Shown here piece after piece: positions 32,007 through 61,641 of a stretch of DNA of 64,000 nucleotides. Made by a program: the position numbers and the translations under genes. The stretch covers positions 26,830 to 90,829 of the forward strand of contig CACILF010000002.1 in the NCBI GenBank assembly GCA_902587435.1, read 5' to 3'. Source of the DNA: an uncultured Pelagibacteraceae bacterium (lineage in GTDB: Bacteria > Pseudomonadota > Alphaproteobacteria > Pelagibacterales > Pelagibacteraceae). Below the pieces are notes generated by a model, which did no database searches, was not told where the DNA came from, and was given only the letters and a program-made list of their open reading frames with translations. Each line of letters starts with the position of its first letter. Position 1 is the stretch's first letter.

Positions 32007-32027
32007 TTTTTAAAATAAATATTAATT

Positions 32028-32056: not shown

Positions 32057-32069
32057 AGAGAAAGAATAA

Positions 32070-33086: not shown

Positions 33087-33090
33087 AAAT

Positions 33091-34909: not shown

Positions 34910-34920
34910 ATAATCTTGAT

Positions 34921-40512: not shown

Positions 40513-41024
40513 TGAAAAAAGAAAATAAAAATAATTATTATAATGAAGAAGATAAAATTAATTTTGAAAAATTAAATAATTTTAAAAAATTTAAGTCTGA
40601 TAATGTAAAAAATTTCCAAATCAAAAATTACAGTACTAACTACTCTAACTCAGATAAAAATAATTTTAATAATATTTTAAAAACTAATGAAAATATATCT
40701 ATGCTAAACCAAAAAGATATTGTTGAAGAGATAAAATATTATAATTCCTCAGACTTTAAAAAATTTGATCAACTAAATAATTTCCCTGAGTACAATGATA
40801 ATAAAGCACATGAAGATAAAGAAAATATAAATTCTAAAGTAACTTACAAATCAAGTGACTATGGTGAATTTAATAAGATAATCCAAACAAAAAATAATGA
40901 AGAAAAAATAAAAGAACAAAACAAAAAAATTAAAGTTATTGATTACGGTAAATTAAAAGATGTTGGAGAAAAACTTAAAAATAAAATTGGAATTGAAAAA
41001 ATAAAAATTGTTTATTTTGATTAG
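40512..41024 (+). CDS. Lysine/asparagine-rich repeat protein with four YxxxDxxxFxx(I/L) repeats
   Basis: I do not recognise this 170-residue hydrophilic protein. It has four copies of a short motif Y-x3-D-x3-F-x2-(I/L): Y10-D14-F18-L21, Y44-D48-F52-I55, Y77-D81-F85-L88 and Y112-D116-F120-I123, spaced 33-35 residues. It ends in a tail (IKVIDYGKLKD ... IKIVYFD) like those of the ABC ATPase and PxpC. No signal peptide or membrane segment is seen, so it is cytoplasmic and probably largely disordered between short helices. The start overlaps the ATPase stop by one base and it ends 3 bp before the permease gene, so it is firmly inside the operon. A scaffold or docking role is my inference. Confidence 0.8.
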   Translation: MKKENKNNYYNEEDKINFEKLNNFKKFKSDNVKNFQIKNYSTNYSNSDKNNFNNILKTNENISMLNQKDIVEEIKYYNSSDFKKFDQLNNFPEYNDNKAHEDKENINSKVTYKSSDYGEFNKIIQTKNNEEKIKEQNKKIKVIDYGKLKDVGEKLKNKIGIEKIKIVYFD

Positions 41025-44762: not shown

Positions 44763-45482
44763 ATGACAAAAATAAATTGTGATATGGGAGAAAGTTTTGG
44801 AATTTATAATGCAGGAAATGATGAGCAAATAATGCCTTTGATAGATGTCGCTAATGTTGCATGCGGTTTTCATGCATCAGATCCTAATCATATGAGAAAA
44901 ACAGTAGAGCTAGCAAAAAAAAATAAAGTAAAAGTAGGAGCTCACCCTTCTTTTCCTGACCTACAAGGCTTTGGAAGAAGAGAAATGAAGATGCCAAAAT
45001 TAGATTTAAAAAATATGATAATGTATCAAGTCGGTGCTCTTAAAGCTTTTTTAGATGAGTATAATATGCCTTTAAACCATATAAAGCCTCATGGATCTTT
45101 ATATGTCATGGCTTCAAAAGATGAAGAGATTGCAAGAGCTATTGCAGATGCGGTCGAAACTTTTAATGTCAGTATTTATGGTATGGCAAATACAGTTCAT
45201 GAAAAAGTTTACAAAAAAGAAAGAAAGTTAGACTTTATCGCAGAATTTTATGCTGATTTAGATTATGACAAAGACGGAAAGCTTGTAATAGCTAAAGGAA
45301 AAAATGCAAAATATAGCAGTAAGTTAGCAGTAAAACGTTGTTTAAGAGCTATAAAAGAAAAAAAAGTTAAAAATACAAGTGGTACAGATACAGATGTTGG
45401 ATGTGATATTATTTGCGTTCATTCAGATACACCTAATGCTGTTGAAATCATCAAAAGTTTAAAAAAAGCACTTAAAAAATAA
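44763..45482 (+). CDS. pxpA: 5-oxoprolinase subunit A (LamB/YcsF family)
   Basis: This 239-residue PxpA-type protein has the full family signature: CDMGESFGIYNAG, ANVACGFHASDP, VGAHPSFPDLQGFGRR and HIKPHGSLYVMA. With PxpB and PxpC it forms an ATP-dependent 5-oxoproline hydrolase in other bacteria. Here PxpB is fused to a biotin carboxylase and a biotin carrier is encoded too, so the reaction may be a biotin-dependent carboxylation/hydrolysis of a lactam or amide rather than simple oxoproline opening. It lies 8 bp after the permease gene and 5 bp before the fusion gene. Confidence 0.92.
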   Translation: MTKINCDMGESFGIYNAGNDEQIMPLIDVANVACGFHASDPNHMRKTVELAKKNKVKVGAHPSFPDLQGFGRREMKMPKLDLKNMIMYQVGALKAFLDEYNMPLNHIKPHGSLYVMASKDEEIARAIADAVETFNVSIYGMANTVHEKVYKKERKLDFIAEFYADLDYDKDGKLVIAKGKNAKYSSKLAVKRCLRAIKEKKVKNTSGTDTDVGCDIICVHSDTPNAVEIIKSLKKALKK

Positions 45483-45487: not shown

Positions 45488-47941
45488 ATGAAAAAAATTC
45501 TGATTGCAAACCGTGGGGAAATTGCCTGTAGAATTATCGATAGTTGTAAAAAACTTAAGTTTCACTCAATAGCAGTTTATTCTGATATAGATAAAAACAG
45601 TAAACATGTAAGAAAAGCGGATGAGTCAATTCACATCGGTGCATCGAAAGCTCAAGAAAGCTATTTAAATGCAGATAAAATAATTGAAGCAGCTAAAAAA
45701 TTAAAAGCTGACGCTATTCACCCCGGTTATGGCTTTTTAGCAGAAAACGAAAAATTTGCCCAAAAAGTAATTGATTCTGGAATTATTTGGATAGGACCTA
45801 AACCAAATACAATTGTCTCAATGGGTAACAAGGATATAGCAAGAGATTTAGCTTTAAAAAGTAATTTACCTATTTGTCCAGGCTTAAATAATAAGGATTT
45901 AGAAAAAGAAGATTTAGAAAAAAAATGCAATGAAATTGGTTTTCCTATTCTAGTAAAAGCTAGTGCAGGAGGAGGCGGAATAGGAATGCAAATTGTTAAC
46001 GATTATGGAGAATTAATTAAATCTTTAGAAAAAACAAAAAATTTAGCTAAGAAAGCTTTTGGTAACAGTGACGTATTTTTAGAAAAATTTATAAAAAATG
46101 CAAGACATATAGAAATACAAATATTTGGATTTGGTAAAAAAAAAGCTGTGCATTTTTTTGAAAGAGATTGTTCTATACAAAGAAGATTTCAAAAAATTAT
46201 AGAAGAAAGTCCAGCACCAAAAATAGATAGAAAAATCTTAAATGAAATGGCACAAAGTGCAGTTAACTTTGCAAGCAATCAAAATTATGAAGGTGCTGGA
46301 ACAATAGAATTTATCTACGATGTGGATGAAAAAAAATTCTACTTTTTAGAAATGAATACAAGAATTCAAGTAGAGCATCCTGTAACTGAAAGTATAACTA
46401 ATTCAGACCTAGTAGAAATGCAAATTAAGTTTGCATTGGGTATTGATCTTGATTTAACAGAACAAAATAAAATTAATAAGAACGGTCATGCAGTTGAATG
46501 TAGATTGTATGCAGAAGATCCTTCAAAAAACTTTCTGCCCTCTCCAGGAAAAATTACAAAACTTAAAATTCCAAACATAGGTTTAACAAATATTAGATTA
46601 GATATTGGTGTTGACGAGGGAGATGAAATATCTTTTTATTACGATCCGATGATTGCAAAGATCATTTCTAAAAGTGCAAATAGAACTGAAAGTATTAATA
46701 ACATGATAAATTTTTTAAAAGATTTTGAAATTGAAGGTATTAAAACAAATAAATCTTTTTTGATATCTGTTCTACAAAATAAAACTTTTGAGGATGCAGA
46801 CTTTAATACAAAATTTATTGAAAATAATTTAACTTTATTTGCAGAAAAAAAAGAAATTAACAAGAAAGACAAGCAGCAAAATAAAAATAATGAACAAAAA
46901 TATAGCGACAAAGATGTAAAAGCATTTGAAAAAATTATTTCAAAAACTCCAAAAATTAAAAATGGTCAAGATTATACAGATAAAGATTTAAAAGAATTTG
47001 AAAATATAGTTTCATCAAAAAATAATAAGAAGAAAACTGATGAGAAAACTGAAGTAAATAACGTTCCAGGCAAAATTTACGATACTCCTAAGTTCTTACC
47101 TGCTGGTGATAAATATATGCTTATTGAGTTTGGAAACGTAATGAATTTAGAGCTAAATTTTACCGCTCAAAATCTAGCAAAGGCAATAAAAGACCACAAA
47201 GTTAAAGGCGTTTACGAAACATCTCCATGTTTTGCTTCTATGATAGTTCATTATGAACCTGAAGAAATAAAATTTAATGAATTAAAAAATGAACTTATAT
47301 CCTTAATCAACTCACTAGGACCTTCAGATGAAATAGAAATAAATAGTAGAATCTTTTCTTTTCCAACTGTTTATTTAGATAAATGGACAAAGGAATGTAT
47401 TGAAGATTATTCAAATAAAATAGCTAAAAAGAAACCTGATCCTGAACTTATAACAGAATTAAATAATCTTGAAAATATTGATCAATTTGTAAGAGTTCAT
47501 TCAACTACAGAATATTGGGTGGCAGCAATAGGTTTTTGGCCAGGTCTTCCGTTTATGATGGCTCTTGATCCAAGATGTAAGCTGACTGTTCCAAAATATA
47601 ACCCTCCAAGAACTTGGACTCCAAAAGGAACTGTTGGAATGGGTGGTGCTTCAACTTGTATTTATCCAGATCGCCTACCAGGTGGTTATCAAATTTTTGG
47701 AATTATCCCTGTTCCTATATGGGACACCAAAAAAAGTTTTCCAGTATTTGAAAATAATATATGTCTTTTTCAACCTGGTGACAGAGTAAAATTTGTACCT
47801 ACTACTTATGAAGAGTTTGACCATGTATCAAACAAAATAAAAGACGGAACATATAATTATAACATTGTTGAATATCAAAAATTCTCAGTAAAAAATTATA
47901 AAAGTTGGTTAAAAACGATTGACCATTCAAAGAGGTTTTAA
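45488..47941 (+). CDS. Biotin carboxylase fused to PxpB/AHS1 (KipI-like) domain, with a repeat-bearing linker
   Basis: This 817-residue fusion begins with a complete biotin carboxylase (residues 1 to about 450: LIANRGEIACRI, HPGYGFLAEN, KASAGGGGIGMQ, EMNTRIQVEHPVTE). Residues ~450-530 are a lysine-rich linker with two copies of the YxxxDxxxFxxI motif (Y472-D476-F480-I483 and Y496-D500-F504-I507). From about 535 comes a PxpB/AHS1 domain (GFWPGLPFMMALDPR, PKGTVGMGGASTCIYP, PGGYQIFG). The motif is the same as in the 170-residue protein of this operon. Urea carboxylase also joins such domains, but as I recall places the PxpC-like half first. The substrate is unknown. Confidence 0.88.
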   Translation: MKKILIANRGEIACRIIDSCKKLKFHSIAVYSDIDKNSKHVRKADESIHIGASKAQESYLNADKIIEAAKKLKADAIHPGYGFLAENEKFAQKVIDSGIIWIGPKPNTIVSMGNKDIARDLALKSNLPICPGLNNKDLEKEDLEKKCNEIGFPILVKASAGGGGIGMQIVNDYGELIKSLEKTKNLAKKAFGNSDVFLEKFIKNARHIEIQIFGFGKKKAVHFFERDCSIQRRFQKIIEESPAPKIDRKILNEMAQSAVNFASNQNYEGAGTIEFIYDVDEKKFYFLEMNTRIQVEHPVTESITNSDLVEMQIKFALGIDLDLTEQNKINKNGHAVECRLYAEDPSKNFLPSPGKITKLKIPNIGLTNIRLDIGVDEGDEISFYYDPMIAKIISKSANRTESINNMINFLKDFEIEGIKTNKSFLISVLQNKTFEDADFNTKFIENNLTLFAEKKEINKKDKQQNKNNEQKYSDKDVKAFEKIISKTPKIKNGQDYTDKDLKEFENIVSSKNNKKKTDEKTEVNNVPGKIYDTPKFLPAGDKYMLIEFGNVMNLELNFTAQNLAKAIKDHKVKGVYETSPCFASMIVHYEPEEIKFNELKNELISLINSLGPSDEIEINSRIFSFPTVYLDKWTKECIEDYSNKIAKKKPDPELITELNNLENIDQFVRVHSTTEYWVAAIGFWPGLPFMMALDPRCKLTVPKYNPPRTWTPKGTVGMGGASTCIYPDRLPGGYQIFGIIPVPIWDTKKSFPVFENNICLFQPGDRVKFVPTTYEEFDHVSNKIKDGTYNYNIVEYQKFSVKNYKSWLKTIDHSKRF

Positions 47942-47948
47942 AAAGAAT

Positions 47949-49076
47949 ATGGTTCAAGTAATTAAAAAAGGTTTAGAAACGTCCGTTCAGGATTATCCTG
48001 GAAGAATTGGAACTTTAAATCAAGGTTTTCCTTCCTCAGGTCCAATGGATAGTTGGTCTTTTAGGCTTGCAAATATTTTAGTGGAAAATGAATCTGGAGC
48101 AGCTGCATTAGAGTGTCAGTTTATGGGTCCAACACTTAAATTTGATAGTGATAGAATTATTGCAATAACTGGAGCTAACATGAATCCAAAGATAGATGGA
48201 AAGATTGTTCCATTGTGGGAAAGTTTAGCAGTCAAAAAGGATCAAATTTTAGAAATGTCTTATGCAACAATAGGTGCAAGAGCTTACATTGCCTTTTCTG
48301 GTGGGATAAATACCACGCCTTGGCTTGGCTCAAGATCAACTTTTCACAAAGCAGGGGTTGGTGGAATAGATGGTAAAGCAATACAAGATGGTCAAATTAT
48401 TCCTTTAAATAAATCTAAGTCATATCCTGGAAGAAAAATTAAAAAAGATTCTATCCCAGTAATGTCTACAAATAAAAAATGGTCAATAGAAGTTGTTAAA
48501 GGACCTAATGATGATTGGGTAGATGACAAAGGTCATAAAATGTTTTTAAATGCTGACTGGAAACTTCAGTCTAAAAGTGACAGAACAGGTTATAGGTTAG
48601 ATGGGCCAAAATGGTCTTTTGCTGAAAAAGCAACTAATAAAGGATTAGAGCATGGAACTTTTCCTTCGAACATTATTGATCAAGGATATCCTGCGGGAGC
48701 CATAAACTTGGCTGGACAAACTCCAATTATATTAGTCAATGATGGTCCTAGTATGGGTGGATTTATTGTTCCTTACACTGTTCCTTCTGCATCTTTTTGG
48801 AAACTTGGCCAAGCAAAACCAGGTGATAGTTTTAATTTTGTTAAAATATCTGTTGATAAAGCTCAAGAATTACGATCAGAACAAACTCAAATTTGTAGTG
48901 AAATTAGTGTGATATCGTCAAAAAAAGGTACTGATTTAAATGACAAAAAGAAAAAAATTAAAATTGATCATATAAAGATTGTTGATTTTGACAAAGAAAG
49001 AATGAATGAAAAAATAAGAACTAAATTAATGGAAAGAAGAGGAATGAAATCAATTAAAATTAGATATTTTGATTAG
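47949..49076 (+). CDS. pxpC: PxpC/AHS2 (KipA-like) biotin-dependent carboxyltransferase subunit with C-terminal tail
   Basis: The core is PxpC/KipA: VIKKGLETSVQDYPGR at the start, SSGPMDSWSFRLANILV, ALECQFMGPTL and GPNDDW. The last ~55 residues are an extra charged tail ending KIVDFDKER ... IKIRYFD, closely similar to the C-terminus of the 170-residue repeat protein and the ABC ATPase tail. It should pair with the PxpB part of the upstream fusion to form the carboxyltransferase site. The ORF track starts at 47919, overlapping the previous gene. I prefer ATG 47949 because the family N-terminus begins right there. Confidence 0.87.
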   Translation: MVQVIKKGLETSVQDYPGRIGTLNQGFPSSGPMDSWSFRLANILVENESGAAALECQFMGPTLKFDSDRIIAITGANMNPKIDGKIVPLWESLAVKKDQILEMSYATIGARAYIAFSGGINTTPWLGSRSTFHKAGVGGIDGKAIQDGQIIPLNKSKSYPGRKIKKDSIPVMSTNKKWSIEVVKGPNDDWVDDKGHKMFLNADWKLQSKSDRTGYRLDGPKWSFAEKATNKGLEHGTFPSNIIDQGYPAGAINLAGQTPIILVNDGPSMGGFIVPYTVPSASFWKLGQAKPGDSFNFVKISVDKAQELRSEQTQICSEISVISSKKGTDLNDKKKKIKIDHIKIVDFDKERMNEKIRTKLMERRGMKSIKIRYFD

Positions 49077-49514: not shown

Positions 49515-50108
49515 ATGCAAGACCAAATGATATTATACAATGGTCCAAATTCTCCCTTTGGAAGAAAGACTAAAATTACAGCTTTAGTACAAAAAATTAA
49601 TTTAGAAGAAAAAATTATAAATGTATATGAATCTGATTTTTTAGATAAACATAATCCATTGAGAAAAATTCCAACACTTCTAGTTGGACAGGAGTCAATT
49701 ACAGATAGTGATAATATATGTTTATACCTAGATTCGATTTCAAAAAAAAATACTTTGTTTCCAAAAAAAAATTATTGGCAAATAATGAATGTAACTTCTA
49801 TCGCTAATGGTTTAATGGAAGCAGTGCTAGAAAGAAGAATGGAAACTATAAGACCAGAAAATGAAAAGAGTAAAAATTTTATCAGCAAACAAGAAGTTAG
49901 GATTAAAAGAACCATTGAATGGCTAGAAAATAATTGGAACAATTATGATGAAAATAATTTAACTATGGATCAAATAACAATAGGATGCGCACTAGATTAT
50001 ACAATCTTTCGATACAATGATGAGTGGAAAACAAATAATAAAGATCTAACCGCCTGGTTTGAAAAATTTATAAAAAATCAATTTATGAAATCAACAGTTC
50101 CAGTTTAA
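49515..50108 (+). CDS. Glutathione S-transferase-family protein
   Basis: This 197-residue protein has a thioredoxin-like N-terminal domain (LYNGPNSPFGRKTKITAL, KIPTLLV, then ITDSDNICLYLD as the glutathione-binding turn) and a helical C-terminal domain. It may conjugate or isomerise an electrophile, or act in a ring-opening step. It is the last gene of the plus-strand operon and converges with the metallo-hydrolase gene with a 2-bp gap. No catalytic serine, cysteine or tyrosine can be assigned with certainty. Confidence 0.83.
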   Translation: MQDQMILYNGPNSPFGRKTKITALVQKINLEEKIINVYESDFLDKHNPLRKIPTLLVGQESITDSDNICLYLDSISKKNTLFPKKNYWQIMNVTSIANGLMEAVLERRMETIRPENEKSKNFISKQEVRIKRTIEWLENNWNNYDENNLTMDQITIGCALDYTIFRYNDEWKTNNKDLTAWFEKFIKNQFMKSTVPV

Positions 50109-50110
50109 AA

Positions 50111-50947
50111 CTAATCGTAATAAAACATTGGAGCTTTTTTCCAATCTAACCAAGTAACTGGATCATGACCCCAAACAACTTTTGCATTATATTCTTTTGC
50201 AACTTGTCTTAATTTTTTAACTGAATCTGCAGCATCAGATGAAGATGCTACTAAACCTGGTAAGCATTTATCACACCAATGGTCTCCTGTATAACATGCA
50301 TCACCAGTAAATAACATATAACCAGTTTTAGGTAGATTAACTAATACAGATTGATGACCTGGTGTATGTCCAGGTGTAAATATTAATTTTATAACCCCAT
50401 CTCCATAAACATCATAAAAATCTGTTTTTCTTCCCTGTAAAAACTTCCAACGTATATTTGGTTTATCAAAGTCTGCTTTTATATAAGCCGGTTGCGAAAA
50501 CCAATCTGGATTATAAGCATAATCATATTCTACCTTTTGAGTGATGTGTGTTGCATTTGGAAAATGCCCTATAGCACCTGAATGATCAAGATGAAGATGT
50601 GTTTGTATAACATATTTAACATCTTCAGGATTCGTATTAACGCTTTTTACCATGTCTTTACACCATTCTGAAGCTTTCATAACTGGGTCGTAAGCCTCAA
50701 CAACATGGCCCCAGTGTTTGTGTTTATCAAGCGCTGCCTCTATTGGCATTCCTCCATCAATAATTACGTCTCCTTCTGGATGTTTGATTAAAAACCATGG
50801 TACAGGAATTTCATAAGGTTCTTCACCTTGATTCATTTTTATAAATTTTAATTTTGTTTTTATTACACCTGTTTGGAACATGTATAATTTAATACCAGTA
50901 TTAAACTTTGTTGTTTGTTCAAAAATATCTTTATCTTTTTCTTTCAT
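50111..50947 (-). CDS. Metallo-beta-lactamase-fold hydrolase (lactonase-like)
   Basis: This 278-residue protein has the binuclear zinc motif THLHLDHSGAIGHF (HxHxDH), FTPGHTPGHQS, and the TGDACYTGDHW and GHDP motifs that supply the remaining ligands. It resembles N-acyl-homoserine lactonase/gamma-butyrolactonase-type enzymes (AttM/BlcC group). Next to an iron-containing alcohol dehydrogenase, a lactone or hydroxy-acid substrate would make sense, by analogy with butyrolactone pathways. It is the last gene of the rhodopsin-led minus-strand operon. Confidence 0.85.
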   Translation of the reverse strand: MKEKDKDIFEQTTKFNTGIKLYMFQTGVIKTKLKFIKMNQGEEPYEIPVPWFLIKHPEGDVIIDGGMPIEAALDKHKHWGHVVEAYDPVMKASEWCKDMVKSVNTNPEDVKYVIQTHLHLDHSGAIGHFPNATHITQKVEYDYAYNPDWFSQPAYIKADFDKPNIRWKFLQGRKTDFYDVYGDGVIKLIFTPGHTPGHQSVLVNLPKTGYMLFTGDACYTGDHWCDKCLPGLVASSSDAADSVKKLRQVAKEYNAKVVWGHDPVTWLDWKKAPMFYYD

Positions 50948-50959
50948 ATATATTTTATT

Positions 50960-52129
50960 CTACCAAGCTGAATGATAAATGTTAAGTGCGTCTTTTTCTG
51001 TCACTTCTCTTGGATTGTTAACTAACAATCTTGTTTGTTTCATTGCATCTTTTGCCATTTTTTCACACGCATTTTTAGGAATATCCACTTCTCTTAACTT
51101 TTGTGGTAATCCTAATTTTTTTGATAAACTTTCTAATTTATCTATAAATTCTGCACACACAGATTGGGCTCCTCTATTAGTATCTATTTCTGGAAAAACA
51201 TATGGAGCTAGTTCGGCATAATCTTTTGAAGCTTTTGAATCTACACTATTGAACCTTAGGACATATGGTAATACCAGAGAATTTGAAAGTCCGTGAGAAA
51301 CATGAAAAGTTCCACCAATCGGATATGCAAGAGCATGGACTGCTGCAACTGGAGAATTAGCAAACGCTTTACCAGCTAACATTGCTCCTATTAACATATT
51401 TCCTCTTGCTTCAACATTTGAACCTTCAAATACTGCCTTCTCTATAGATCCACCAAGTAATTTTAAAGCTTCTACTGATAACATTTTTGAAATAGGATTA
51501 TTATTTTTACTTGAAGATGCGTATGCTTCAATTGCATGGACCATAGCATCAATTCCTGTTGCTGCTGTAGTACCTGCTGGAAGACCTAAAGTTAAATCAG
51601 GATCTAATATAGCTAAATCAGGTAATATTATTGATGAAGAAACTCCTTTTTTTTCTTCCTCTCCAACAGTTATAATAGATACAGGTGTAACTTCTGATCC
51701 TGTGCCTGCAGTAGTTGGAATTAAAACAAGAGGTAAGCGCGGTCCTTTTGCGTTTGCAACTCCCCATGCTTCTTCTAAATTTTCACCAGAGCCAAGTATT
51801 AAAGCTGCAAGTTTAGCTACGTCCATGGAAGAGCCTCCTCCAAAACCAATAACGCCTGTTGCTTTAATTTTTTTTCCAACTTCAATTGCTTTAAGGAGAG
51901 TTTTTTTGGAAGGATCTGCTTCAACATCATCAAAAATTTCAACAGAACTAGTTTTTTTTAATTCTTTTAAAGTTTGCCCTGTTAAGCCCAATGACATTAG
52001 ACCTTTATCGGTGATAAAAAGAATACTTTGACCTAGTTTATTGGAAATTTCTTTACAACAATCTTTTGATTGACCGCTTCCATAACGAAGGCCAGGTGTT
52101 GTATTAAATTGAAAAGAATTTAAAGTCAT
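50960..52129 (-). CDS. Iron-containing (group III) alcohol dehydrogenase
   Basis: This 389-residue protein has the nucleotide motif GFGGGSSMDVAK, the family motif TTAGTGSEVTPVS and the iron ligands in GIDAMVHAIEAY and VHALAYPIGGTFHVSHG. The family interconverts alcohols and aldehydes or semialdehydes, for example 4-hydroxybutyrate. It is 6 bp after the symporter gene and 12 bp before the metallo-hydrolase gene on the same strand. The substrate cannot be read. Confidence 0.9.
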   Translation of the reverse strand: MTLNSFQFNTTPGLRYGSGQSKDCCKEISNKLGQSILFITDKGLMSLGLTGQTLKELKKTSSVEIFDDVEADPSKKTLLKAIEVGKKIKATGVIGFGGGSSMDVAKLAALILGSGENLEEAWGVANAKGPRLPLVLIPTTAGTGSEVTPVSIITVGEEEKKGVSSSIILPDLAILDPDLTLGLPAGTTAATGIDAMVHAIEAYASSSKNNNPISKMLSVEALKLLGGSIEKAVFEGSNVEARGNMLIGAMLAGKAFANSPVAAVHALAYPIGGTFHVSHGLSNSLVLPYVLRFNSVDSKASKDYAELAPYVFPEIDTNRGAQSVCAEFIDKLESLSKKLGLPQKLREVDIPKNACEKMAKDAMKQTRLLVNNPREVTEKDALNIYHSAW

Positions 52130-52135
52130 AAATTA

Positions 52136-54202
52136 TTATACAAAGTAAACATAAAACACTATTGAAAATATTGCTATTCCTATAAGAATTAAAATCCACC
52201 CATATCCCGTGCCAACTTTATCAATATAATTTACTTCTCCTTGGACCTCATCTGGGGGTTGATACAAATCATTAGCTTGAATTGGCTTGTTTGGCAGAGT
52301 TGATAAATCCATTTTGTTAGATAAAAACCATATTAAGCCTATTCCAAAAAACCACCATATTAGTTGATATCCCCAAATAGATGGTATCTTTAAAATCCAC
52401 GCTTCATATCCTGCTCCAGGTTCTCCAAAAAAATTATTACCTAAAACTTGTCCGGGACCAACACCAAAAAACAACCAAATTAAAGCTATTACGTAAGCAA
52501 ACGATCTTAATTTTGTTCTACTAGGATGTAGGCCCATATGATCATTTAAAAAATCATGAAATTTTTGTCTATGAGATCTGTACATATCAATCTTGGTAAT
52601 ATTTGAAAAACCAGAAATAGAAAAACAAATAAATACATTAAATATTAAACCCCATACTCCTGAGTGAATCGTTAAAGGCCATCTCCCCCAAGGCAATCTG
52701 TTTCCAGTAATTTGCTGTCCAATCGTTTCAGTTAAAATAACAATAATGATTCCAATAATTAAACCTGACATTGCTGCTCCTTTGGTAATCCAAGGGAACC
52801 ATAACAATCCTAATAAAACAATAATAAACTGAAAAGCTATTGCTATCGAAATTCCACTAAAAATTACCATCGCGGGTTTAGCAAACGTAGCTAAATAAAG
52901 CGAAGCTAAAAAAATTAGCAGCATAATAATTCTAGCAACAGCGAGTTCTTTTTCCCAAGGTATATTTTTATTTACATAAGCCTTGTATAAGTCTCTAGTA
53001 ATAATACTACCCGAAGTCATTAATAATGCTGAAGCTGTTGATTGAAGGGCTGCAATTATTCCAACTGCTAATAAGCCTGTTACCCAAAGAGCATATTCGT
53101 CCATTAAATTTATAATATGATAAATTATTAATGAGTGATCATTGTTTGGTATCTCTGGGAGTAAATTGCTAATTGCTAAGCCATTACTATTTACTTCCGA
53201 ATTAGCTCCTAACAAGCTTGCACCAATACCTTGAAAGGTTGTAAAAATAAATAATAATAAACCTACTACTACTGCAGAGCCCCATATTTGGTAATATGAA
53301 AATACTTTTGGATGCTTTGCAGAGTAACTCCACATAGAAAAAGAAGGTGAAAGTATAATTCCCATAAATGTTACTGTAAAAGTAAATATCATCATTGCCG
53401 TCCATGGACCACCAACTGCTTCGTTTTTACCTAAACCTGCAACCCATTGAATAACTCCTGGTAATGCAAAGTATCCGTTATAGTCTCCACCACCGTAACC
53501 ATTTGTATTTCCCCATGAACTAATTGAAGTACTTGCAATTTTTGCTAATGATTTACCAAATGAATCTAAATCACCAATGAAAGAATAAATAATAATCCCT
53601 AAAAGAATTACAGTTACAAAATATAACCATGACTGAACAACACCAACGCTAACAATTGATTTAAATCCCCCTCTTGTAACATAAAAAAGTACAATTGTAG
53701 AAACTACCCACATTCCCATTTCTCTAGAGACATAACCTTCGCTTAAAATATTTATCAGATAACCAGTTGCTCCAAAAAAAACTGCTATAAGCGGAATTGC
53801 AATAAAAAAAGTTACTAAAACAGATAAAACACGAATAGTATCACTTTTATAGTAATCATAATACATTTCACCCGGTGTAATATATCCAAATTTTCTACTT
53901 AACATCCACTGACGCTTAAAAAAAAATATACTTCCAAGTGGTACTGTTATTGCAATAAAAGCTGTTCCTACATATTGAAAACCATCATTAAAAATTAAAT
54001 TTGTTTGGGATATTACTGTTAAACCTGAAAAAGTGGCTGCTGTTGCGGCAAAGAAAAAAACCCAAGAAGAAACATTTCTATTTGCTAAATAAAATTTTTC
54101 TGGACTATCAGAATTATAATTAGATCCTCTTACACCCCAAAAAAAACAAAATGCAGCATAAACTAATATAAATATTAATAACCAAAGAGATTTTTCGGAC
54201 AT
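52136..54202 (-). CDS. Sodium:solute symporter (SSS) family transporter, long form
   Basis: This 688-residue protein has about 14 membrane segments. The SSS pattern is visible in the N-terminal half (FFAATAATFSGLTVISQ, FGYITPGEMYYDYYK). A long C-terminal region (about residues 520-688) with two or three extra segments makes it larger than PutP (about 500). It imports an organic solute with Na+. Its place directly after the dimethylformamidase-like genes and before an alcohol dehydrogenase suggests it brings in the amide or a related compound. A ribosome site (GGAAGGATTAA) precedes the ATG. Confidence 0.88.
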   Translation of the reverse strand: MSEKSLWLLIFILVYAAFCFFWGVRGSNYNSDSPEKFYLANRNVSSWVFFFAATAATFSGLTVISQTNLIFNDGFQYVGTAFIAITVPLGSIFFFKRQWMLSRKFGYITPGEMYYDYYKSDTIRVLSVLVTFFIAIPLIAVFFGATGYLINILSEGYVSREMGMWVVSTIVLFYVTRGGFKSIVSVGVVQSWLYFVTVILLGIIIYSFIGDLDSFGKSLAKIASTSISSWGNTNGYGGGDYNGYFALPGVIQWVAGLGKNEAVGGPWTAMMIFTFTVTFMGIILSPSFSMWSYSAKHPKVFSYYQIWGSAVVVGLLLFIFTTFQGIGASLLGANSEVNSNGLAISNLLPEIPNNDHSLIIYHIINLMDEYALWVTGLLAVGIIAALQSTASALLMTSGSIITRDLYKAYVNKNIPWEKELAVARIIMLLIFLASLYLATFAKPAMVIFSGISIAIAFQFIIVLLGLLWFPWITKGAAMSGLIIGIIIVILTETIGQQITGNRLPWGRWPLTIHSGVWGLIFNVFICFSISGFSNITKIDMYRSHRQKFHDFLNDHMGLHPSRTKLRSFAYVIALIWLFFGVGPGQVLGNNFFGEPGAGYEAWILKIPSIWGYQLIWWFFGIGLIWFLSNKMDLSTLPNKPIQANDLYQPPDEVQGEVNYIDKVGTGYGWILILIGIAIFSIVFYVYFV

Positions 54203-54216
54203 TTAATCCTTCCACT

Positions 54217-54585
54217 TTAGGTACAACGCATTGGCGCTGACTCGCCACGCTCTTTTTTAATTCTTTCTGCTTCTTCCTGTGCTTTTTCAATTGAACTAAA
54301 AACTTTATCTTCAAACAAAATAAAAGGCTTTGCTCTATCGGCATTAAGTTGCGCCACACACCATTCTTTGCCAGGTTTTGTACACATTACCATATATGCT
54401 CCTGGTATAGGTCCATAACGTCTATTGTTTAATGTAAAAAGACACTTAGCAAGTTCAGTTAATTTATCTTCATCTAAATTTCCTAAAGCATTCTTTTCTA
54501 ATTCATTCAATGGCGTAACATTGTCAGATCCTAGTACACTTTTACCGCCAGTTCCTTCTGGTCTTGTAAATTGAGGTTTGTTCAT
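54217..54585 (-). CDS. Small conserved-looking protein coupled to the dimethylformamidase-like large subunit
   Basis: I do not recognise this 122-residue soluble protein. It has four cysteines (AKCLFTL, VMCTKPGKEWC and the C-terminal PMRCT) and a motif NNRRYGPIPGAYM. Its ATG overlaps the large-subunit stop by one base (TAATG), so the two are translated in near-equal amounts. It may be a third subunit or metal/assembly factor of the amidohydrolase. It is followed by the symporter gene 14 bp later. Confidence 0.75.
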   Translation of the reverse strand: MNKPQFTRPEGTGGKSVLGSDNVTPLNELEKNALGNLDEDKLTELAKCLFTLNNRRYGPIPGAYMVMCTKPGKEWCVAQLNADRAKPFILFEDKVFSSIEKAQEEAERIKKERGESAPMRCT

Positions 54586-56942
54586 TATGGTAATGGCCCT
54601 TCTTTTAAAAATCCTTTGATTGCATTCTCTAAAATTTTTGAAACATTATTATTATAATTGTTATAAGATAAACTTCCGCACCAAGATAATGAACCTGGTG
54701 CAAATAAAGCTCCATCATTTGGAGTTTTGTAATAAATCATGTCAGCTCTAACCATCGGGTTTTCTGTACCACCACCGTAGAAACCTCTTACTGTAAAATG
54801 AATTTCCTCATTAACTTGCATCATTAAGTTTGTGTGATTTTCAGATCTAGCTAGCAAATATGCGTTATGAGGAGTTCCAAATTCTAAATCATATCTATCA
54901 AGTTCTAAACCTGCGGCACCTCCACCTACTAAACCAAAATCTCCAATAACTTCATCTTCGCCAACTCCGTCAAAAATCCATGAACACTCTGGTCTTTTAC
55001 TATCAGGACATCTTTTATAATATGAACTGACATCAAAACCATAAGCTGTAAAAGTTAATCCACAAACCTTTGATGGTATTCTTCCTCTTGCTCTCCACAT
55101 TCCTCCATATTTTCCATCAAAAGCATTATTGTATTCTCCTGGGTTAGCGGTCCATGCTCTTGTTCCCGCCTCACCTTTTCTTACTTCAATTATATTTGGA
55201 TTGTCAGGGTGATATTCGCTTATCCAATAAAATCCATCAGAGCCTAAATAAATCCATCTTCCACCATTTAATTGATATTGTTCATATGCTGCTAACATTT
55301 TTTCTGAGCTGTATTCTGGATGAGAGCCCGTTAAAACACATTTATATCTATTTAATAATTCTACTCCTTCTAAGTGTAAATCCTCATCAGTTACCACATC
55401 GAAATCAATTTTTTTTTCTTCCAGCCAGTCAGTTAAATGCAAATCTGCATTTAATTGCCAAAGTGAAGGTGATAACCAGTGCCTATATTTAGGTCTCATG
55501 TTTAAAATTGGTCTTAATCTAGAAGAGATAGCTACACCGCTGCCATCAGAGTGCTTAGAATATGTAGATAAACCATACTCTCTATGTTCATTTAAATATA
55601 AATCTGATGCAGCTAACACTGGAACTTTTCCTGCTAGTAATTGTGCTACAACTGAATTTGTTCCTAAATTGTCGTTCGAATATGCTAAATAACTATTTGT
55701 AGGTAATACAAAACAAAGCTTAGATGTTGCTTTTCCTTTGGGTGGTTTTATTACAAACGGAATAAAATCCTCGGTTTCTGCAGATTCTTCACCATTAATT
55801 CTTAATCTTGCTGCGTAAACTCCACTTCGAATTATATCAGGAATTTTAAATGTAAAGTCTACATCCCATCTTGCATCATCTATATCATCATCATGAAAAT
55901 GAATTGCACCATATTCCTCTGGTTTGTGATGAAAAACCATTTCATCTGCAGTCCAATTATAACCTGTCATAGCTCTACAAGGTAAATTAATAATAAATCC
56001 GTTTAAATGATTAGATGTGGTATCAATTATATAAGTAGAGGCTATATTTTTTGTTATATTTGAATGAAAGTCCCACGCTCCTACTACCTCTGATCTAAGT
56101 TCAGATGTACATCCACTGTATCCTCTTGCCAAAGATTCTATCTCAGATTTCGATAAAGCTTTTTTACTCAGTCTTGGTCTATCTATTTTACCATTATAAG
56201 TTAATGTTTGCTCTGGTAATTCAATTGGACTTAAAGCTTCTTTATAATGTCCGCCATGGATATGTCTTCCTGATCTATCGTTAAGCGTACATGCTGCCAT
56301 TAAAAAAGGTGCATCATTAGCTCTAGGTTTTAAATTATTTACTGTCTCAACATAAGAAGTTGTTTCGTCTGCAGGATGAAGTAAGGACATTCCTAAGCCA
56401 CCATTTGTAGGTGTTACACAAGGTTCTTGATAAAGTTTTAATTTTCCTGTCTCAGCATCGTAAGTAGCTGCAACTAAATACCAAACTTTTCTCATTAATT
56501 CTTTTTCACTCGAAAGAGTCGTAACCTGGCCCCCTCCATCTCCAATCATGACTGATAAACATTTGTTCTCATCTATAAAAAGACCAAAGCCACTTTTAGT
56601 TTTATCATTCCATTTAGTTAAAATTCCTTGTTTACCTTTTTCTGGAGTTGTCGGAAAAATATATGCTTGTAGGGTAAAGCTAGTTGTATTTAATCTATCA
56701 TCTTGAGGTATTACTACATACGAACCACCATGAATTCTTTGATTTCTTCCTTGAAAAGTTCTGTTGCATTCAGCTCCAATTTCTTCATCTTTGTAACCAG
56801 GACCTTCGGGATTGGTATCTCCATGAATAAGTCTTACAATTTGAACATCATAGTTTTCGTTCTTTTCAGCATTAACATAAAACTTAATTTCCTCACCAGG
56901 AAAGGCTTGGTACTTGTCGCTATAGCCAGTAATTCTTAACAT
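54585..56942 (-). CDS. dmfA2: N,N-dimethylformamidase-like large subunit
   Basis: This 785-residue protein matches the large (beta) subunit of dimethylformamidase in length and layout. An N-terminal region is followed by a LamG/concanavalin-like domain (about residues 75-265, LQAYIFPTT ... GFGLFIDENKCLSVMIGD) and a C-terminal amidotransferase-like domain. The Paracoccus enzyme uses an iron bound by two tyrosines and a glutamate. NSYLAYSNDN, YGLSTYSKHSDG and TGSHPEYSSE here are probable equivalents (inference). It hydrolyses an amide C-N bond; the true substrate may be another small amide. The small subunit gene is 22 bp upstream. Confidence 0.88.
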   Translation of the reverse strand: MLRITGYSDKYQAFPGEEIKFYVNAEKNENYDVQIVRLIHGDTNPEGPGYKDEEIGAECNRTFQGRNQRIHGGSYVVIPQDDRLNTTSFTLQAYIFPTTPEKGKQGILTKWNDKTKSGFGLFIDENKCLSVMIGDGGGQVTTLSSEKELMRKVWYLVAATYDAETGKLKLYQEPCVTPTNGGLGMSLLHPADETTSYVETVNNLKPRANDAPFLMAACTLNDRSGRHIHGGHYKEALSPIELPEQTLTYNGKIDRPRLSKKALSKSEIESLARGYSGCTSELRSEVVGAWDFHSNITKNIASTYIIDTTSNHLNGFIINLPCRAMTGYNWTADEMVFHHKPEEYGAIHFHDDDIDDARWDVDFTFKIPDIIRSGVYAARLRINGEESAETEDFIPFVIKPPKGKATSKLCFVLPTNSYLAYSNDNLGTNSVVAQLLAGKVPVLAASDLYLNEHREYGLSTYSKHSDGSGVAISSRLRPILNMRPKYRHWLSPSLWQLNADLHLTDWLEEKKIDFDVVTDEDLHLEGVELLNRYKCVLTGSHPEYSSEKMLAAYEQYQLNGGRWIYLGSDGFYWISEYHPDNPNIIEVRKGEAGTRAWTANPGEYNNAFDGKYGGMWRARGRIPSKVCGLTFTAYGFDVSSYYKRCPDSKRPECSWIFDGVGEDEVIGDFGLVGGGAAGLELDRYDLEFGTPHNAYLLARSENHTNLMMQVNEEIHFTVRGFYGGGTENPMVRADMIYYKTPNDGALFAPGSLSWCGSLSYNNYNNNVSKILENAIKGFLKEGPLP

Positions 56943-56964
56943 TATAAAAACCTCAATAAATTAA

Positions 56965-57384
56965 TCATCCACCGTGCCTTTCAAGTAAATCTACAACTCT
57001 TTTTAAAAATATAGCATGTTCACATGCTTCTTCTGAAGAGAATGACTCTTCTAAAATTTCTACAGGTTGGCCTCTTACTCCGGTTACAATTCCAATTCTA
57101 TAGTCTTGAAAATCTTTTTTACATATAGTTACATACTTTTTGATATGCATTGGTTGTCTTCTAAGTTTGTCTAAAACTATTTGTAATTCTTTACTATGTT
57201 CAACCATTGGCTGACCTTTATGAGGTTGCGCAGCTTTACCAACTGGACATGCTCTGTGTTCTTCAATTAACTTGTTTCGCATTTTTTCATCTCTTAGCAG
57301 AGGTAAAACATATTTTTCAGTTATAAAATCATCGGTGCTAGTATGTCCTAGATCTAGCTGAACACCTGTTTTATCTTTTTTCAT
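56965..57384 (-). CDS. dmfA1: N,N-dimethylformamidase-like small subunit
   Basis: This 139-residue protein resembles the small (alpha) subunit of dimethylformamidase (about 132 residues). Shared landmarks are EEHRACPVGK, then LRRQPMHIKKYVTICKKDFQDYRI, and a C-terminal helix AIFLKRVVDLLERH. In the known enzyme the small subunit wraps the large one in an alpha2beta2 or higher assembly. It lies between the alpha/beta hydrolase gene (21 bp) and the large-subunit gene (22 bp), which is the usual small-then-large order. Confidence 0.83.
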   Translation of the reverse strand: MKKDKTGVQLDLGHTSTDDFITEKYVLPLLRDEKMRNKLIEEHRACPVGKAAQPHKGQPMVEHSKELQIVLDKLRRQPMHIKKYVTICKKDFQDYRIGIVTGVRGQPVEILEESFSSEEACEHAIFLKRVVDLLERHGG

Positions 57385-57405
57385 ATTTAACCTCTTCGTT
57401 AATAC

Positions 57406-58260
57406 TTACTTGTTAGTTCTTTCTTGAATTATTTTTAAAGCCTCAATCAAATAAACCCTAAATACTTCATGATTTTCACTCATTGGGAAATGTCCAATAT
57501 CGGTCATTTCTATATAAACGCCTCCTTTTATCTGCCTTGCTGTATTTTCTGTTGCTTCTGGAGGAGTTAAGTAATCATAAGTACCCGTTAACATTATTAC
57601 TGGACATTTATGTCCATCAATATTTTTTAATTCATTTCTCAAATCGTGATCAACTGAATAAAAGTATAAATCTCCCTTAAATGCCTCTGACCCTTGAGTG
57701 TAGTAATGCCAAGTCAACCATCTATCTTTATCTGGTGATTGTGGTGCCATTAGATCCCAAGTTCCACTTGCACAAACCTGTGCCGCATTAGCGTGTGGAT
57801 GTCTCCACCAGTCCAAGTAAAATCCTGGAGCGTAATCAGCAGCCTCAACTGGTATAACTGCTCTAAATTTATTTGGATGTCTTAAAGCAAGTTGCAGAGC
57901 TACATTGCCTCCAAATGAAGATCCCATAAATATTGGATCTTTTAAATTTAAAGCTTCACATAATTTCACAATAAAATTACAATAATGTTCTGCAGTTAAT
58001 TTATACTCTTCTTTCCACCATTCTTTATTGTGTGGTGGGTCAGATTTACCATGTCTAGGTAAATCATACGCTATAACATTATAATTTTTTGTTATTTCTT
58101 CATCTTCTAAAAGTCCTCGCCACTGGTGGTTATGACATCCAGCTGTGTGCTGACAAACTAAAGGAATTCCTTTTCCGTTTTGTAAATAGAAAACTTTATA
58201 TTCACAGTCATCTACCTCTATAGTTACATAACGTCCTACAACATCGTGGTGCTTTACCAT
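57406..58260 (-). CDS. Alpha/beta hydrolase
   Basis: This 284-residue protein has the nucleophile elbow GSSFGG, an oxyanion region VCQHTAGCHNHQW, the acid in TGTYDYLTPP and the histidine in IGHFPMSE, giving a complete Ser-Asp-His triad. The length is typical of carboxylesterase or C-C hydrolase types. It lies inside the dimethylformamidase-like operon, so it may process an ester, amide or lactone in the same pathway. The substrate is unknown. Confidence 0.88.
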   Translation of the reverse strand: MVKHHDVVGRYVTIEVDDCEYKVFYLQNGKGIPLVCQHTAGCHNHQWRGLLEDEEITKNYNVIAYDLPRHGKSDPPHNKEWWKEEYKLTAEHYCNFIVKLCEALNLKDPIFMGSSFGGNVALQLALRHPNKFRAVIPVEAADYAPGFYLDWWRHPHANAAQVCASGTWDLMAPQSPDKDRWLTWHYYTQGSEAFKGDLYFYSVDHDLRNELKNIDGHKCPVIMLTGTYDYLTPPEATENTARQIKGGVYIEMTDIGHFPMSENHEVFRVYLIEALKIIQERTNK

Positions 58261-58291
58261 TTAATTTCTCCCTTTAAATTAAAATATCTCA

Positions 58292-58681
58292 TTAAACTGG
58301 AACTCCTATTTTTCTTAAGAGTTCAAATTGAACTGTAAAATTTCTTAAATTTTTCATTAAAATTAAGTGATTGCCTTCAATTTTTAGATCTTTTAAAAAG
58401 CTTGCAGACCATATTCCATGATACATTGGCTTGGGCATAGGTTGTCCAAATTCTCTCCATGTTTGTGCTGAAGCTCTTAAAGCAAAATCATATGGATCTA
58501 ATGGGGATGGACTTGTATTAATATTTTTTACTTTACCGTCGTGCATTTCAATTATTACTTTTGCTTTTTCCATATCAAACATAAAAGAGCATGTGTAATA
58601 TTTTGCCATTGCTTTAATGGTCTCATCACCATTTGTAAGATCTTCATATTTTTTTGCCCAATTTTCTATTTCCGTGCTCAT
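58292..58681 (-). CDS. Hypothetical protein, possible SCP2-like fold
   Basis: This 129-residue protein has no signal peptide or membrane segment. The pattern DMEKAKVIIEMHDGKVKNIN followed by DPYDFALRASAQTWREF and a C-terminal LKIEGNHLILMKNLRNF is reminiscent of SCP2-type lipid-binding folds, but I am not sure. It sits between the flotillin gene (17 bp) and the alpha/beta hydrolase gene (31 bp) in the rhodopsin-led operon. Function cannot be assigned. Confidence 0.72.
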   Translation of the reverse strand: MSTEIENWAKKYEDLTNGDETIKAMAKYYTCSFMFDMEKAKVIIEMHDGKVKNINTSPSPLDPYDFALRASAQTWREFGQPMPKPMYHGIWSASFLKDLKIEGNHLILMKNLRNFTVQFELLRKIGVPV

Positions 58682-58698
58682 AAAATATTTAATTTAAG

Positions 58699-60687
58699 TT
58701 ATTTGTTTTTTGGATTATTGGCTCCTTTTAAATTTTTTGCATCTTCACCAAAGTTCATATGATAATCTTTCTTTGGATTTCCATAATCACCAAGGATATT
58801 TCGGATGTTACTAATTTCTCCAGGATTCATTCCAATTTCTTTAAGAAGACTATCTAAAAACGGTTGATGAGCTCTATATCTTAAAGCTGAACTAACTACA
58901 TTGTCTGCCAAGTTTCCTCCTCCACTTTTAGATCCACCAGAAGTACCTGATCCGCCACCTCCCGAAGGTGAAACACTTGTTCCGCTAAATCCAGGAAGAC
59001 CGCTGACATCTACAATTTTAATGTCACCAATGTTTGCCATAGGTTTAACGCTTTCTCTAATAATTGATTCAATTTTTTCAGCAAGTTTTATTCTTAATGC
59101 ACTTCTTCTATTTGCATCACTTCTTACATTCTCAGCAAGATTTAACGCTTCTTTACCTGCAGCATCTATTTCGTATCTTAATTTAGCAGCCATAGTTGCA
59201 TGTTTATCTTGTTCAGCTTTTGCAGATGCCTCAATTACATCTACTTGTTTAATACCTTCAGCTTTTTCAATGTATCTAGTTGAATTAGCTTTTTCTTCAG
59301 CTTCTATAGCTTTAGCTCTGGTATTTTGTTCCTCAGCTTTTGATGCAAGAACTTCTTTAGATTTTTCAATTATCTCTAACTCTTTTTGGTGTTCCTCAAT
59401 TTGCAACCTCTTAGCCTTTTCAATATCTAAAGTTCTAACTTCTTTTTCTGATTCAATTCTATGTGAATCTATATTTCTCTGCTGAGCAATTTTAGCATTT
59501 TTAATTTCTTGTTCAGAAATTATTTGTGCTTCCTCAGCTTCTTTTTGTCTTTCCGATTGCTCTTTTATTATTGATGTTTTTTCTTGAGCTCGTTTAATAT
59601 CAACTAATCTTTGTTTTTCTAAACGTGCATATTCACTTTCTTTATCTAAATTTAAAATCTTAACTTCAGTTTCAAGATCTTTTTGCCTTATATCAAGAGC
59701 TGAATTTTTTTCTAATTCATTTTGTTCTTTTCTTCTCTTTTCGATTTCCTCAATCAATCTTGTTTCCGTGAGTTTTCTTTCAACTTCAATAACTTGGTTT
59801 TGAGAAATTTTTGCAACTTCAATTGCCTCTTGGCTTTTTATTTCTGCTTCTTCTGCTTCTCTTTCTTTTTCTGCTCTTTGTTTTATTGACTCAGTTTTTT
59901 CGTTAGCCTTTTGAATAGAAACTTCTCTTTCCTGTTTAAATTTTGAAAACTCTTCATTTTTTTTAATTTCTAATTCTTTTTGAATTGTTTCTAAATTCTT
60001 ATTTTCAATAGAAATTTTTGTATCTTGAGTAATGTCATTTCTTTTCTTTTTTCTAGTTTCAATTTGCTCAGTCAGTTGTGTTAAACCTTGTGAGTCAAAA
60101 GTATTAGCTGGATTAAATTGTTCTATTGGAGTTTGGTCCAAAGAAATTATTGAAACCGTTTCTAATGCTAAACCTGTATGACCAATTGATCCGTCAGCAA
60201 TTTTTGTAACTTCTTTTACAAACTGTCCTCTATTCTCTTGTATTTCATCTAGAGTCATTTTTGCAGCAACCTCTCCTAATGCATCTGCGAAACGTCCTTG
60301 AACTACTTCTCTTAAATGTTCAGGATCGAGTGTTCTATTACCTAAAGTTTGTGCAGCAGTTGAAACAGCTCTTGGATCAGGTGGAACTTTTGTAAAAAAT
60401 TCCGTAACAAGCTCTGCTCTCATTCTATCTTTTGTTATCAAAGATTTATCGCCTCCTCTTTTTATAGTAATACTTAATGTTCGCATACCTACTTGAGTGA
60501 TATTATGAATAATTGGTAAAACAAATGCACCGCCGGATATAACAACTTTCTCCCCGAGCATTCCTGTTCTTACAAAAGAAACTTCTTTCGAAGATCTTCT
60601 GTATAGCCAATGCAATAAATAAACTATAATCGCTATTGCAAGTGCTAATAAAATTATCGCTGCTATTATATCTGCTCCTCTAGTCAT
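58699..60687 (-). CDS. SPFH/flotillin-family membrane scaffold protein (YqiK-like)
   Basis: This 662-residue protein has one N-terminal membrane segment (about residues 8-28), an SPFH/band-7 domain (about 30-210, ISGGAFVLPIIHNITQVGMRTL) and a long coiled coil (about 215-540). The coiled coil contains a tandem duplication: ANEKTESIKQRAEKEREAEEAEI is repeated about 108 residues later as AQEKTSIIKEQSERQKEAEEAQI. A glycine/serine-rich linker (GGGGSGTSGGSKSGGG) precedes a short C-terminal domain. Flotillins form oligomeric rings organising membrane microdomains. Strong ribosome site (AAGGAGGAACAATT). It lies 18 bp after the rhodopsin gene. Confidence 0.92.
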   Translation of the reverse strand: MTRGADIIAAIILLALAIAIIVYLLHWLYRRSSKEVSFVRTGMLGEKVVISGGAFVLPIIHNITQVGMRTLSITIKRGGDKSLITKDRMRAELVTEFFTKVPPDPRAVSTAAQTLGNRTLDPEHLREVVQGRFADALGEVAAKMTLDEIQENRGQFVKEVTKIADGSIGHTGLALETVSIISLDQTPIEQFNPANTFDSQGLTQLTEQIETRKKKRNDITQDTKISIENKNLETIQKELEIKKNEEFSKFKQEREVSIQKANEKTESIKQRAEKEREAEEAEIKSQEAIEVAKISQNQVIEVERKLTETRLIEEIEKRRKEQNELEKNSALDIRQKDLETEVKILNLDKESEYARLEKQRLVDIKRAQEKTSIIKEQSERQKEAEEAQIISEQEIKNAKIAQQRNIDSHRIESEKEVRTLDIEKAKRLQIEEHQKELEIIEKSKEVLASKAEEQNTRAKAIEAEEKANSTRYIEKAEGIKQVDVIEASAKAEQDKHATMAAKLRYEIDAAGKEALNLAENVRSDANRRSALRIKLAEKIESIIRESVKPMANIGDIKIVDVSGLPGFSGTSVSPSGGGGSGTSGGSKSGGGNLADNVVSSALRYRAHQPFLDSLLKEIGMNPGEISNIRNILGDYGNPKKDYHMNFGEDAKNLKGANNPKNK

Positions 60688-60705
60688 AATTGTTCCTCCT
60701 TAAAT

Positions 60706-61404
60706 CTAAGTACCTTTCTGTGTGTCTTGTTTTGCTGCGCTATAAATTATCATTCCAAATATTATTTTATTTAAAAAATCAGCTAGGTTATAAATTACAT
60801 TTAGACTATTTATGTTTGCTCCTCCCGCCAGATGTTCAATAAAATATCCGATATGATAAATTGAAAAACCTATTGTTATAATTAGTCTATTTGCAAAAAA
60901 AGCCATTTGAACATTTTCGTTGCCACAAGAAGCATTTTTTCTTCCTGTGTCACCCATATAAAGTTCACCTATTATGTACAACCATCCAACTATACCAACC
61001 AAAAATCCTAGAGTTACACTCATGTAGCCATAAGCTCCTAGAAGTTGAGCAATAACCCAAACCAAAGTACCAACCAATAAACGCCAAAACATTCCTCTTT
61101 TGATGTCGGTAACTGAATTTAGCATCACATAAAAAGTTAAAATTGTTAATGGAAAAGTAAGAAGCCAATCAATATATCTTAATGCTATTGGTGCTTGTCC
61201 ATTTAATACCCATAAATTTTTTGCGTAGAAATAATGTATGGATGACATCAAAGCGATCACTCCAACAATGTTCATTACTGTAGCCCATCGATTTGATAAT
61301 CGCCCTCTCTCTAAAAAGAAAAATATTGCTGCACCTATCATTGCAACAGAAATTAGCCAAAAAGATCCTCCGACTATATCCTGTGGTAATAATAGCTTAT
61401 TCAT
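60706..61404 (-). CDS. Proteorhodopsin-family retinal protein with D-T-T motif
   Basis: This 232-residue, seven-helix microbial rhodopsin aligns with proteorhodopsin at a constant offset of 18. H57 equals H75, R76 is conserved, D79 equals the acceptor D97, T83 equals T101, D209 equals D227, and the retinal lysine is K213 (NLADFLNKIIFG). The proton-donor position 108 is threonine (T90) instead of glutamate, and the colour-tuning position 105 is threonine (T87) instead of leucine or glutamine. There is no signal peptide: the first helix begins at about residue 12, and an upstream in-frame stop fixes the start. No retinal synthesis genes are in the window. It is the first gene of a minus-strand run reaching 50111. 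Confidence 0.93.
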   Translation of the reverse strand: MNKLLLPQDIVGGSFWLISVAMIGAAIFFFLERGRLSNRWATVMNIVGVIALMSSIHYFYAKNLWVLNGQAPIALRYIDWLLTFPLTILTFYVMLNSVTDIKRGMFWRLLVGTLVWVIAQLLGAYGYMSVTLGFLVGIVGWLYIIGELYMGDTGRKNASCGNENVQMAFFANRLIITIGFSIYHIGYFIEHLAGGANINSLNVIYNLADFLNKIIFGMIIYSAAKQDTQKGT

Positions 61405-61641
61405 AAGTCCGCATTTCTCCCTTTATAATAATAACCTAATTAAATAGAGAGTTTCTCATAAATCAAATTAAAAATATCATATTTTTTTTAGTTATATTTT
61501 TTAGAAGGTTTATAAACTATTATTTTCAACGAAAAAAAAAGTTTTAATATTAAAATACAATCTTTGGTAGAAATTTTTTTTAAACTTAAATTAAAATAAT
61601 AATTTTATTTCGAGAAACATTTAATAATTATAATATGAAGA
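61405..61641. promoter_or_regulatory. Divergent intergenic region, rhodopsin/ParA-like
   Basis: This 237-bp gap, the longest in the window, must hold promoters for both the rhodopsin-led operon and the plus-strand group. It is extremely AT-rich with long T and A runs, so -10-like boxes are everywhere and I cannot choose. On the minus strand AAGGGAG lies 12 bases before the rhodopsin ATG, with a five-codon upstream frame (ATGCGGACTTATGAATAA) overlapping that start. On the plus strand TATAAT (61629-61634) lies 7 bases before the ParA ATG. No RNA gene is seen. Confidence 0.4.

Follow-up and report, generated by a model that had tools for sequence, protein, structure and literature searches.

The question raised by this locus is what a rhodopsin gene does in front of a row of hydrolase and transporter genes in an uncultured Pelagibacteraceae bacterium. 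The window, by which we mean the whole stretch of 64,000 nt that was analyzed, carries ten ORFs between positions 61404 and 50111, all co-oriented on the minus strand. A sequence-only reading had described them as a rhodopsin-led series with short gaps, and all ten ORFs were confirmed at the coordinates given there, together with their families. From the rhodopsin end, they encode a flotillin-associated rhodopsin (FArhodopsin, FAR) of the DTT-T type with the retinal lysine K213 (60706..61404; PF01036, E 9e-27), a flotillin of 662 aa (58699..60687; PF15975 Flot, E 6e-30), an SCP2-like protein of 129 aa (58292..58681), an alpha/beta hydrolase (57406..58260; PF00561, E 6e-21), the small (56965..57384; 6lvb_B, E 5.6e-6) and large (54585..56942; 6lvb, E 3e-190) subunits of a dimethylformamidase (DMFase)-like enzyme, a second small-subunit-like paralogue of 122 aa (54217..54585), a sodium:solute symporter (SSF) of 688 aa (52136..54202; PF00474, E 1e-19), an iron-containing alcohol dehydrogenase (Fe-ADH; 50960..52129; PF00465/PF25137) and an AttM-type MBL-fold lactonase with an intact HxHxDH motif (50111..50947; NF045700). 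The 129-aa product is probably SCP2-like, i.e., a putative carrier of hydrophobic ligands, as judged from weak Pfam matches (6/8 homologues match PF02036, best E 0.009). Its AlphaFold model has a mean pLDDT of 43, at which the Foldseek matches are meaningless, and a fold assignment was dropped. For the Fe-ADH, the nearest NCBIfam models are ErcA, SarD and lactaldehyde reductase, every one under its cut-off. The MBL protein scores above the cut-off of its NCBIfam equivalog (396.2 against 390 bits) and adjoins the Fe-ADH, like the AttM/BlcC type, yet it lacks a neighboring semialdehyde dehydrogenase; its role as a lactonase is predicted. The lactonase and Fe-ADH pair presumably resembles the Agrobacterium blc operon.

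The gaps along the ten genes, from the rhodopsin end, measure 18, 17, 31, 21, 22, -1, 14, 6, and 12 nt. The first of them, the rhodopsin-flotillin junction (60688..60705, minus strand), consists of little else than the Shine-Dalgarno sequence AAGGAGG. A strong terminator at this point, which the sequence-only reading had named as an argument against its proposal, was not detected there, and the scan returned no terminator-like site in any gap of the ten-gene set, against a background of 7 such sites per 12 kb (4.7 expected). The presumed promoter region of the operon is the divergent spacer of 237 nt (61405..61641). In a related SAR11 cluster, metatranscriptome reads span both rhodopsin and flotillin, which thus share one mRNA (PMC10308929). 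Together with the gaps and the conserved gene order, this makes a single transcription unit well supported; transcription would by extension reach the amide genes. The layout is not due to chance, since the order is identical in every sufficiently long SAR11-type locus that we found. Purifying selection acts strongly on each of the ten genes (pN/pS 0.05–0.16, given in this form because dS is close to saturation); the value for the rhodopsin is 0.08, and the alpha/beta hydrolase is the most conserved (0.047).

The observation of the sequence-only reading was correct, but it overlooked that the rhodopsin-flotillin pair and its neighbors had been published: the cluster is one more copy of the FAR gene cluster of Pelagibacterales. 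Haro-Moreno et al. (2023; PMC10308929) described it in Pelagibacterales, HIMB59, and Pseudothioglobus as a region of about 26 kb, in which a 236-nt spacer (the length in AG-390-L03) is followed by 10 same-strand genes, with flotillin 16 nt from rhodopsin. It includes DMFase, Na+ symporter, Fe-ADH, alpha/beta hydrolase, SCP2, biotin carboxylase and PxpA genes, and its rhodopsins carry DTT, DTL, or DNI motifs. The same authors reported a proteorhodopsin (PR) in every FAR genome, a marine distribution limited to three streamlined taxa, and a lack of the cluster in the isolate genomes from that group (PMC10308929). In the window, the cluster spans 37548–61404, about 24 kb. Beyond the ten genes it comprises, all on the plus strand, genes for a periplasmic binding protein (37548..38750; PF13407, Peripla_BP_4), an ABC ATPase (38767..40512; two PF00005 domains), an enlarged ABC permease 1 (41028..43349; PF02653), an ABC permease 2 (43351..44754; PF02653), which adjoins the rhodopsin in other taxa, a PxpA/LamB-YcsF family protein (44763..45482; PF03746), a biotin carboxylase fused to a PxpB/KipI-like domain (45488..47941; PF00289, PF02786, PF02785, PF02682), a PxpC/KipA-like carboxyltransferase subunit (47919..49076; PF02626), and a GST-like protein (49515..50108; PF13417), the last convergent with the operon end. 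AG-390-L03 (G131, locus L088) shares with the window the order of ten co-oriented genes, the spacer of ~236 nt, the DTT-T rhodopsin, flotillin, DMFase, symporter, Fe-ADH, biotin-carboxylase, and PxpA genes, and the proteins of the ten genes are 81–95% identical; the GST-like gene, however, was not found in AG-390-L03 at the search threshold. The gene order is also identical in genomes G030 and G233. In these two, about 300 nt separate the 122-aa gene from the symporter (L027, about 11253–11553; L029, about 10978–11281), compared with 14 nt in the window, enough to accommodate an internal promoter or a short gene. Amid the ABC genes of the window (40512–41024) lies a low-complexity, Asn/Lys-rich ORF of 170 aa, which is 54–64% identical in relatives where the adjacent genes reach 81–94%. 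Farther out (29671–35805), genes resembling, by eye, those of gamma-butyrobetaine/carnitine catabolism and betaine transport (TauD/BBOX-like, ProX/W/V-like, SDR, BKACE-like) were noted.

In its DTT motif, the T at the tuning position and the short N-terminus, the window rhodopsin also resembles deep SAR11 proteorhodopsins described earlier from Station ALOHA (Olson et al., 2018; PMC5864233). Their genomic context was left undescribed, unlike here; we found that AAA288-N07, named in that study, possesses the ten-gene set (L100). What we regard as new beyond the published cluster is the survey of gene order in SAR11 and HIMB59, the FAR-clade cluster in three large genomes devoid of amidase, PR and Blh, a rhodopsin-less amidase trio in many bacteria, and the recognition of the 122-aa protein as a second small-subunit paralogue.

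Is the rhodopsin still driven by light? Its best PDB match is 9r21, "flotillin-associated rhodopsin" (E 9e-89), and it falls on the FAR side of a FAR/PR branch supported at 100/99 (18 vs. 10 sequences). It aligns without gaps to proteorhodopsin 4jq6 and retains R76, D79, W80, D209, and K213. The motif residues are D79, T83, and T90, i.e., T at the proton-donor position, in place of the carboxylate of the DTE/DTD motif of proton-pumping proteorhodopsins. The retinal pocket contains bulky residues; it holds F84, Q120, and, where bacteriorhodopsin has W182 and P186, F180 and H184, and most of the changes F84, Q120, F180, H184, and T90 are common to SAR11-type copies. The Thioglobus-type PDB chain 9r21 and the chain 9r23 differ in the aligned region only by H84V and E120G: 9r21 has H84 and E120, while 9r23 carries V and G, like proteorhodopsin. 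These are two of the positions altered in the window-type pocket, and 9r23 would seem to be a variant with the pocket reopened. SAR11 DTT-T proteins expressed in Escherichia coli neither bound retinal nor pumped (PMC5864233). We regard the window rhodopsin as degenerate and probably light-blind. The counter-ion positions vary in two FAR copies, D79E in L097 and D209E in L108, and are otherwise invariant among those compared.

These data bear on the proposal of the sequence-only reading that a light-active rhodopsin feeds light energy into the Na+ symporter or acts as a light sensor regulating the operon. The kept K213 and counter-ion D79 agree with it, as does the co-transcribed layout, and the window's own genome encodes Blh, so that retinal is probably available there (no bona fide PR was found elsewhere in this genome, which is 71% complete). 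Yet the donor is lost, the pocket is filled, the equivalents of W182 and P186 are replaced by F and H, and the SAR11 DTT-T proteins were inactive in E. coli; moreover, no transducer gene occurs in the window cluster, and the cluster exists also in genomes with neither Blh nor a second rhodopsin. The coupling of light to uptake thus finds no support here, and we consider a light-active role very unlikely.

As to conservation, flotillin was detected in 7/297 Pelagibacterales genomes, and a DMFase large subunit of at least 88% identity in the same seven. Five of them encode the FAR rhodopsin, and in the other two the contig stops inside flotillin. An eighth genome (G125) has a DMFase fragment of 45% identity at a contig end, which we did not count as a FAR case. 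In our survey of 80 named loci harboring a DMFase relative, of which only those with enough contig were scored, rhodopsin and flotillin are kept with the amidase in 25/25 SAR11-type and 18/18 HIMB59-type loci; each SAR11-type locus without them is cut by a contig end. The gene order, whose conservation in relatives had been proposed as a check, is kept in all 25 of the former and rearranged in all 18 of the latter, where Fe-ADH is missing and the symporter relocated. The claim that the rhodopsin heads the operon holds for most SAR11 loci only: in HIMB59, L103, L106, L108, L109, and the large genomes treated below, a same-strand permease gene lies upstream, and the rhodopsin is not always the cluster head. 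L108 (1494–13194) and L109 (1466–12907) combine the FAR cluster with the amidase on contigs with a GC content of 0.59–0.61; their MAGs are labeled Hyphomicrobiales and Chromatiales, beyond the published marine host taxa, and the two loci are about 75–78% identical to each other.

The amidase itself belongs to the DMFase family, as judged by sequence. The large subunit can be aligned over its full length to Paracoccus 6lvb_A and retains the Fe ligands Y421, Y461, and E543, plus H541 and E680, so that in Paracoccus numbering both Fe tyrosines, E521, H519, and E657 are present and the 2-Tyr-1-carboxylate Fe site is there. It thus shares with the Paracoccus dimethylformamidase (6lvb; PMC7686228) a full-length large subunit, a small subunit and the Fe-site residues, but differs in its neighbors, in having a second small-subunit paralogue (the 122-aa protein; hhalign against the small subunit 94%, E 8.5e-8) and in the oxyanion residue, where Asn (N547 in Paracoccus) is replaced by D569. 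As N547 is essential against DMF in the Paracoccus enzyme (PMC7686228), the name "dimethylformamidase" is not justified for the SAR11 protein. Asp occupies this position in all alphaproteobacterial FAR copies checked. It was rejected as a mark of rhodopsin-linked amidases, because the residue is Asn in the FAR copies of Thioglobus/SUP05 and Asp in many copies that lack a rhodopsin.

The trio of large, small and second small subunits also occurs without rhodopsin or flotillin, at 71–74% identity, in alpha- and gammaproteobacteria, and four such loci (L129, L132, L140, L156) extend for at least 9.5 kb on both sides. In Paenibacillus naphthalenovorans (L155, 5186–14476), more distant DMFase subunits, SSF, an alpha/beta hydrolase 77% identical to that of the window and an SCP2-like protein (50%) lie within 10 kb, with rhodopsin absent; so high an identity across phyla suggests gene transfer. 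In L074 (11901–19892), the rhodopsin-less trio adjoins split glutamate-synthase-type genes (GATase, GXGXG, Glu_synthase), which we take to resemble N-methylglutamate synthase and which hint at an amine product.

The converse case, FAR without amidase, is provided by three genomes from a single alphaproteobacterial genus (G480, G650, and G573; loci L169, L170, and L171), which are large (4.0–4.5 Mb), high in GC and 96–97% complete. Their gene row comprises binding protein, ABC ATPase, permeases, rhodopsin, flotillin, SCP2-like protein, alpha/beta hydrolase, and MBL hydrolase, with an SSF symporter nearby. Identity to the window is 50% for rhodopsin, 50% for flotillin, 73% for the SCP2-like protein, 84–85% for the alpha/beta hydrolase, and 31% for the MBL protein, and the rhodopsins form the deepest FAR branch of the tree. 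We found no DMFase-family gene in these genomes; this absence rests jointly on several searches, as PF20254 matched nothing in control genomes either. Hence, the amide enzymes are optional in the FAR cluster, and the trio is an interchangeable accessory. The term "amide-catabolism operon," apt for the window, does not extend to the family. Mis-binning of MAG contigs can be a source of such clusters; here, the FAR genes agree with their neighbors in third-position GC, and the three genomes concur. Together with L108 and L109, they extend the published host range of FAR.

This independence of the modules is what one would expect if rhodopsin-flotillin and the catabolic enzymes merely shared a genomic island without joint function, and isolate genomes within the group do lack the cluster (PMC10308929). 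Yet SCP2, alpha/beta hydrolase, ABC importer, MBL, and SSF accompany rhodopsin-flotillin across SAR11, HIMB59, the two high-GC MAGs and the large-genome family, which makes mere co-location improbable.

The large genomes also bear on the published hypothesis that FArhodopsin aids an ordinary proteorhodopsin in flotillin-built membrane patches in dim light. It is favored by the depth distribution and co-transcription (PMC10308929), and by the separate PR and Blh that we found in each of the FAR-bearing streamlined genomes checked (G131, G030, G233, G553, and G630). In the three large genomes, however, neither a second rhodopsin nor Blh was found at 96–97% completeness, so that the helper idea cannot be general, and we regard it as unlikely. 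A search for lycopene cyclase was unspecific, giving short sub-cut-off matches in the large genomes and long ones only in SAR11 and HIMB59 genomes. RPE65-family oxygenases are present in the large genomes and might cleave imported carotenoids, giving retinal; their rhodopsin type retains V84, W180, and P184 and, from these residues, could bind it.

In our opinion, the best explanation, with a probability of roughly 0.6, is a retinal-independent membrane platform of a seven-helix protein and flotillin serving an import-and-hydrolysis pathway. It draws on the pocket changes, the failures of SAR11 DTT-T proteins in E. coli, the FAR-only genomes without Blh and the conserved order; the platform and ligand roles derive from gene context. 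The rhodopsin would no longer be a retinal-driven pump, and with flotillin it would organize, or sense for, the pathway. The ABC importer and SSF symporter of the cluster would import a compound, which we do not assume to be DMF. A hydrophobic intermediate may be bound by SCP2, and ester, lactone or amide bonds would be cut by the alpha/beta hydrolase, the MBL lactonase and, in clusters that have it, the DMFase-like amidase together with both its small subunits. Against the platform speaks the retinal lysine, present in all 47 FAR proteins of the named loci and in the three large genomes, an oddity if the protein works without retinal; also, the negative E. coli results may be folding failures. 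More tentatively, and as a possibility only, FArhodopsins as a group could be seven-helix proteins that act independently of retinal and bind, in their altered pocket, the hydrophobic substrate of the pathway or a lipid, forming the uptake-hydrolysis platform with flotillin also outside streamlined plankton.

The useful addition is not the window copy itself but the comparison with the large genomes and the optional nature of the amidase. This comparison suggests a FAR core of importer, blind rhodopsin, flotillin, SCP2, and hydrolases. If the large-genome family were cultured, knockouts, difficult to make in SAR11, could be used to test the role of a retinal-free rhodopsin.
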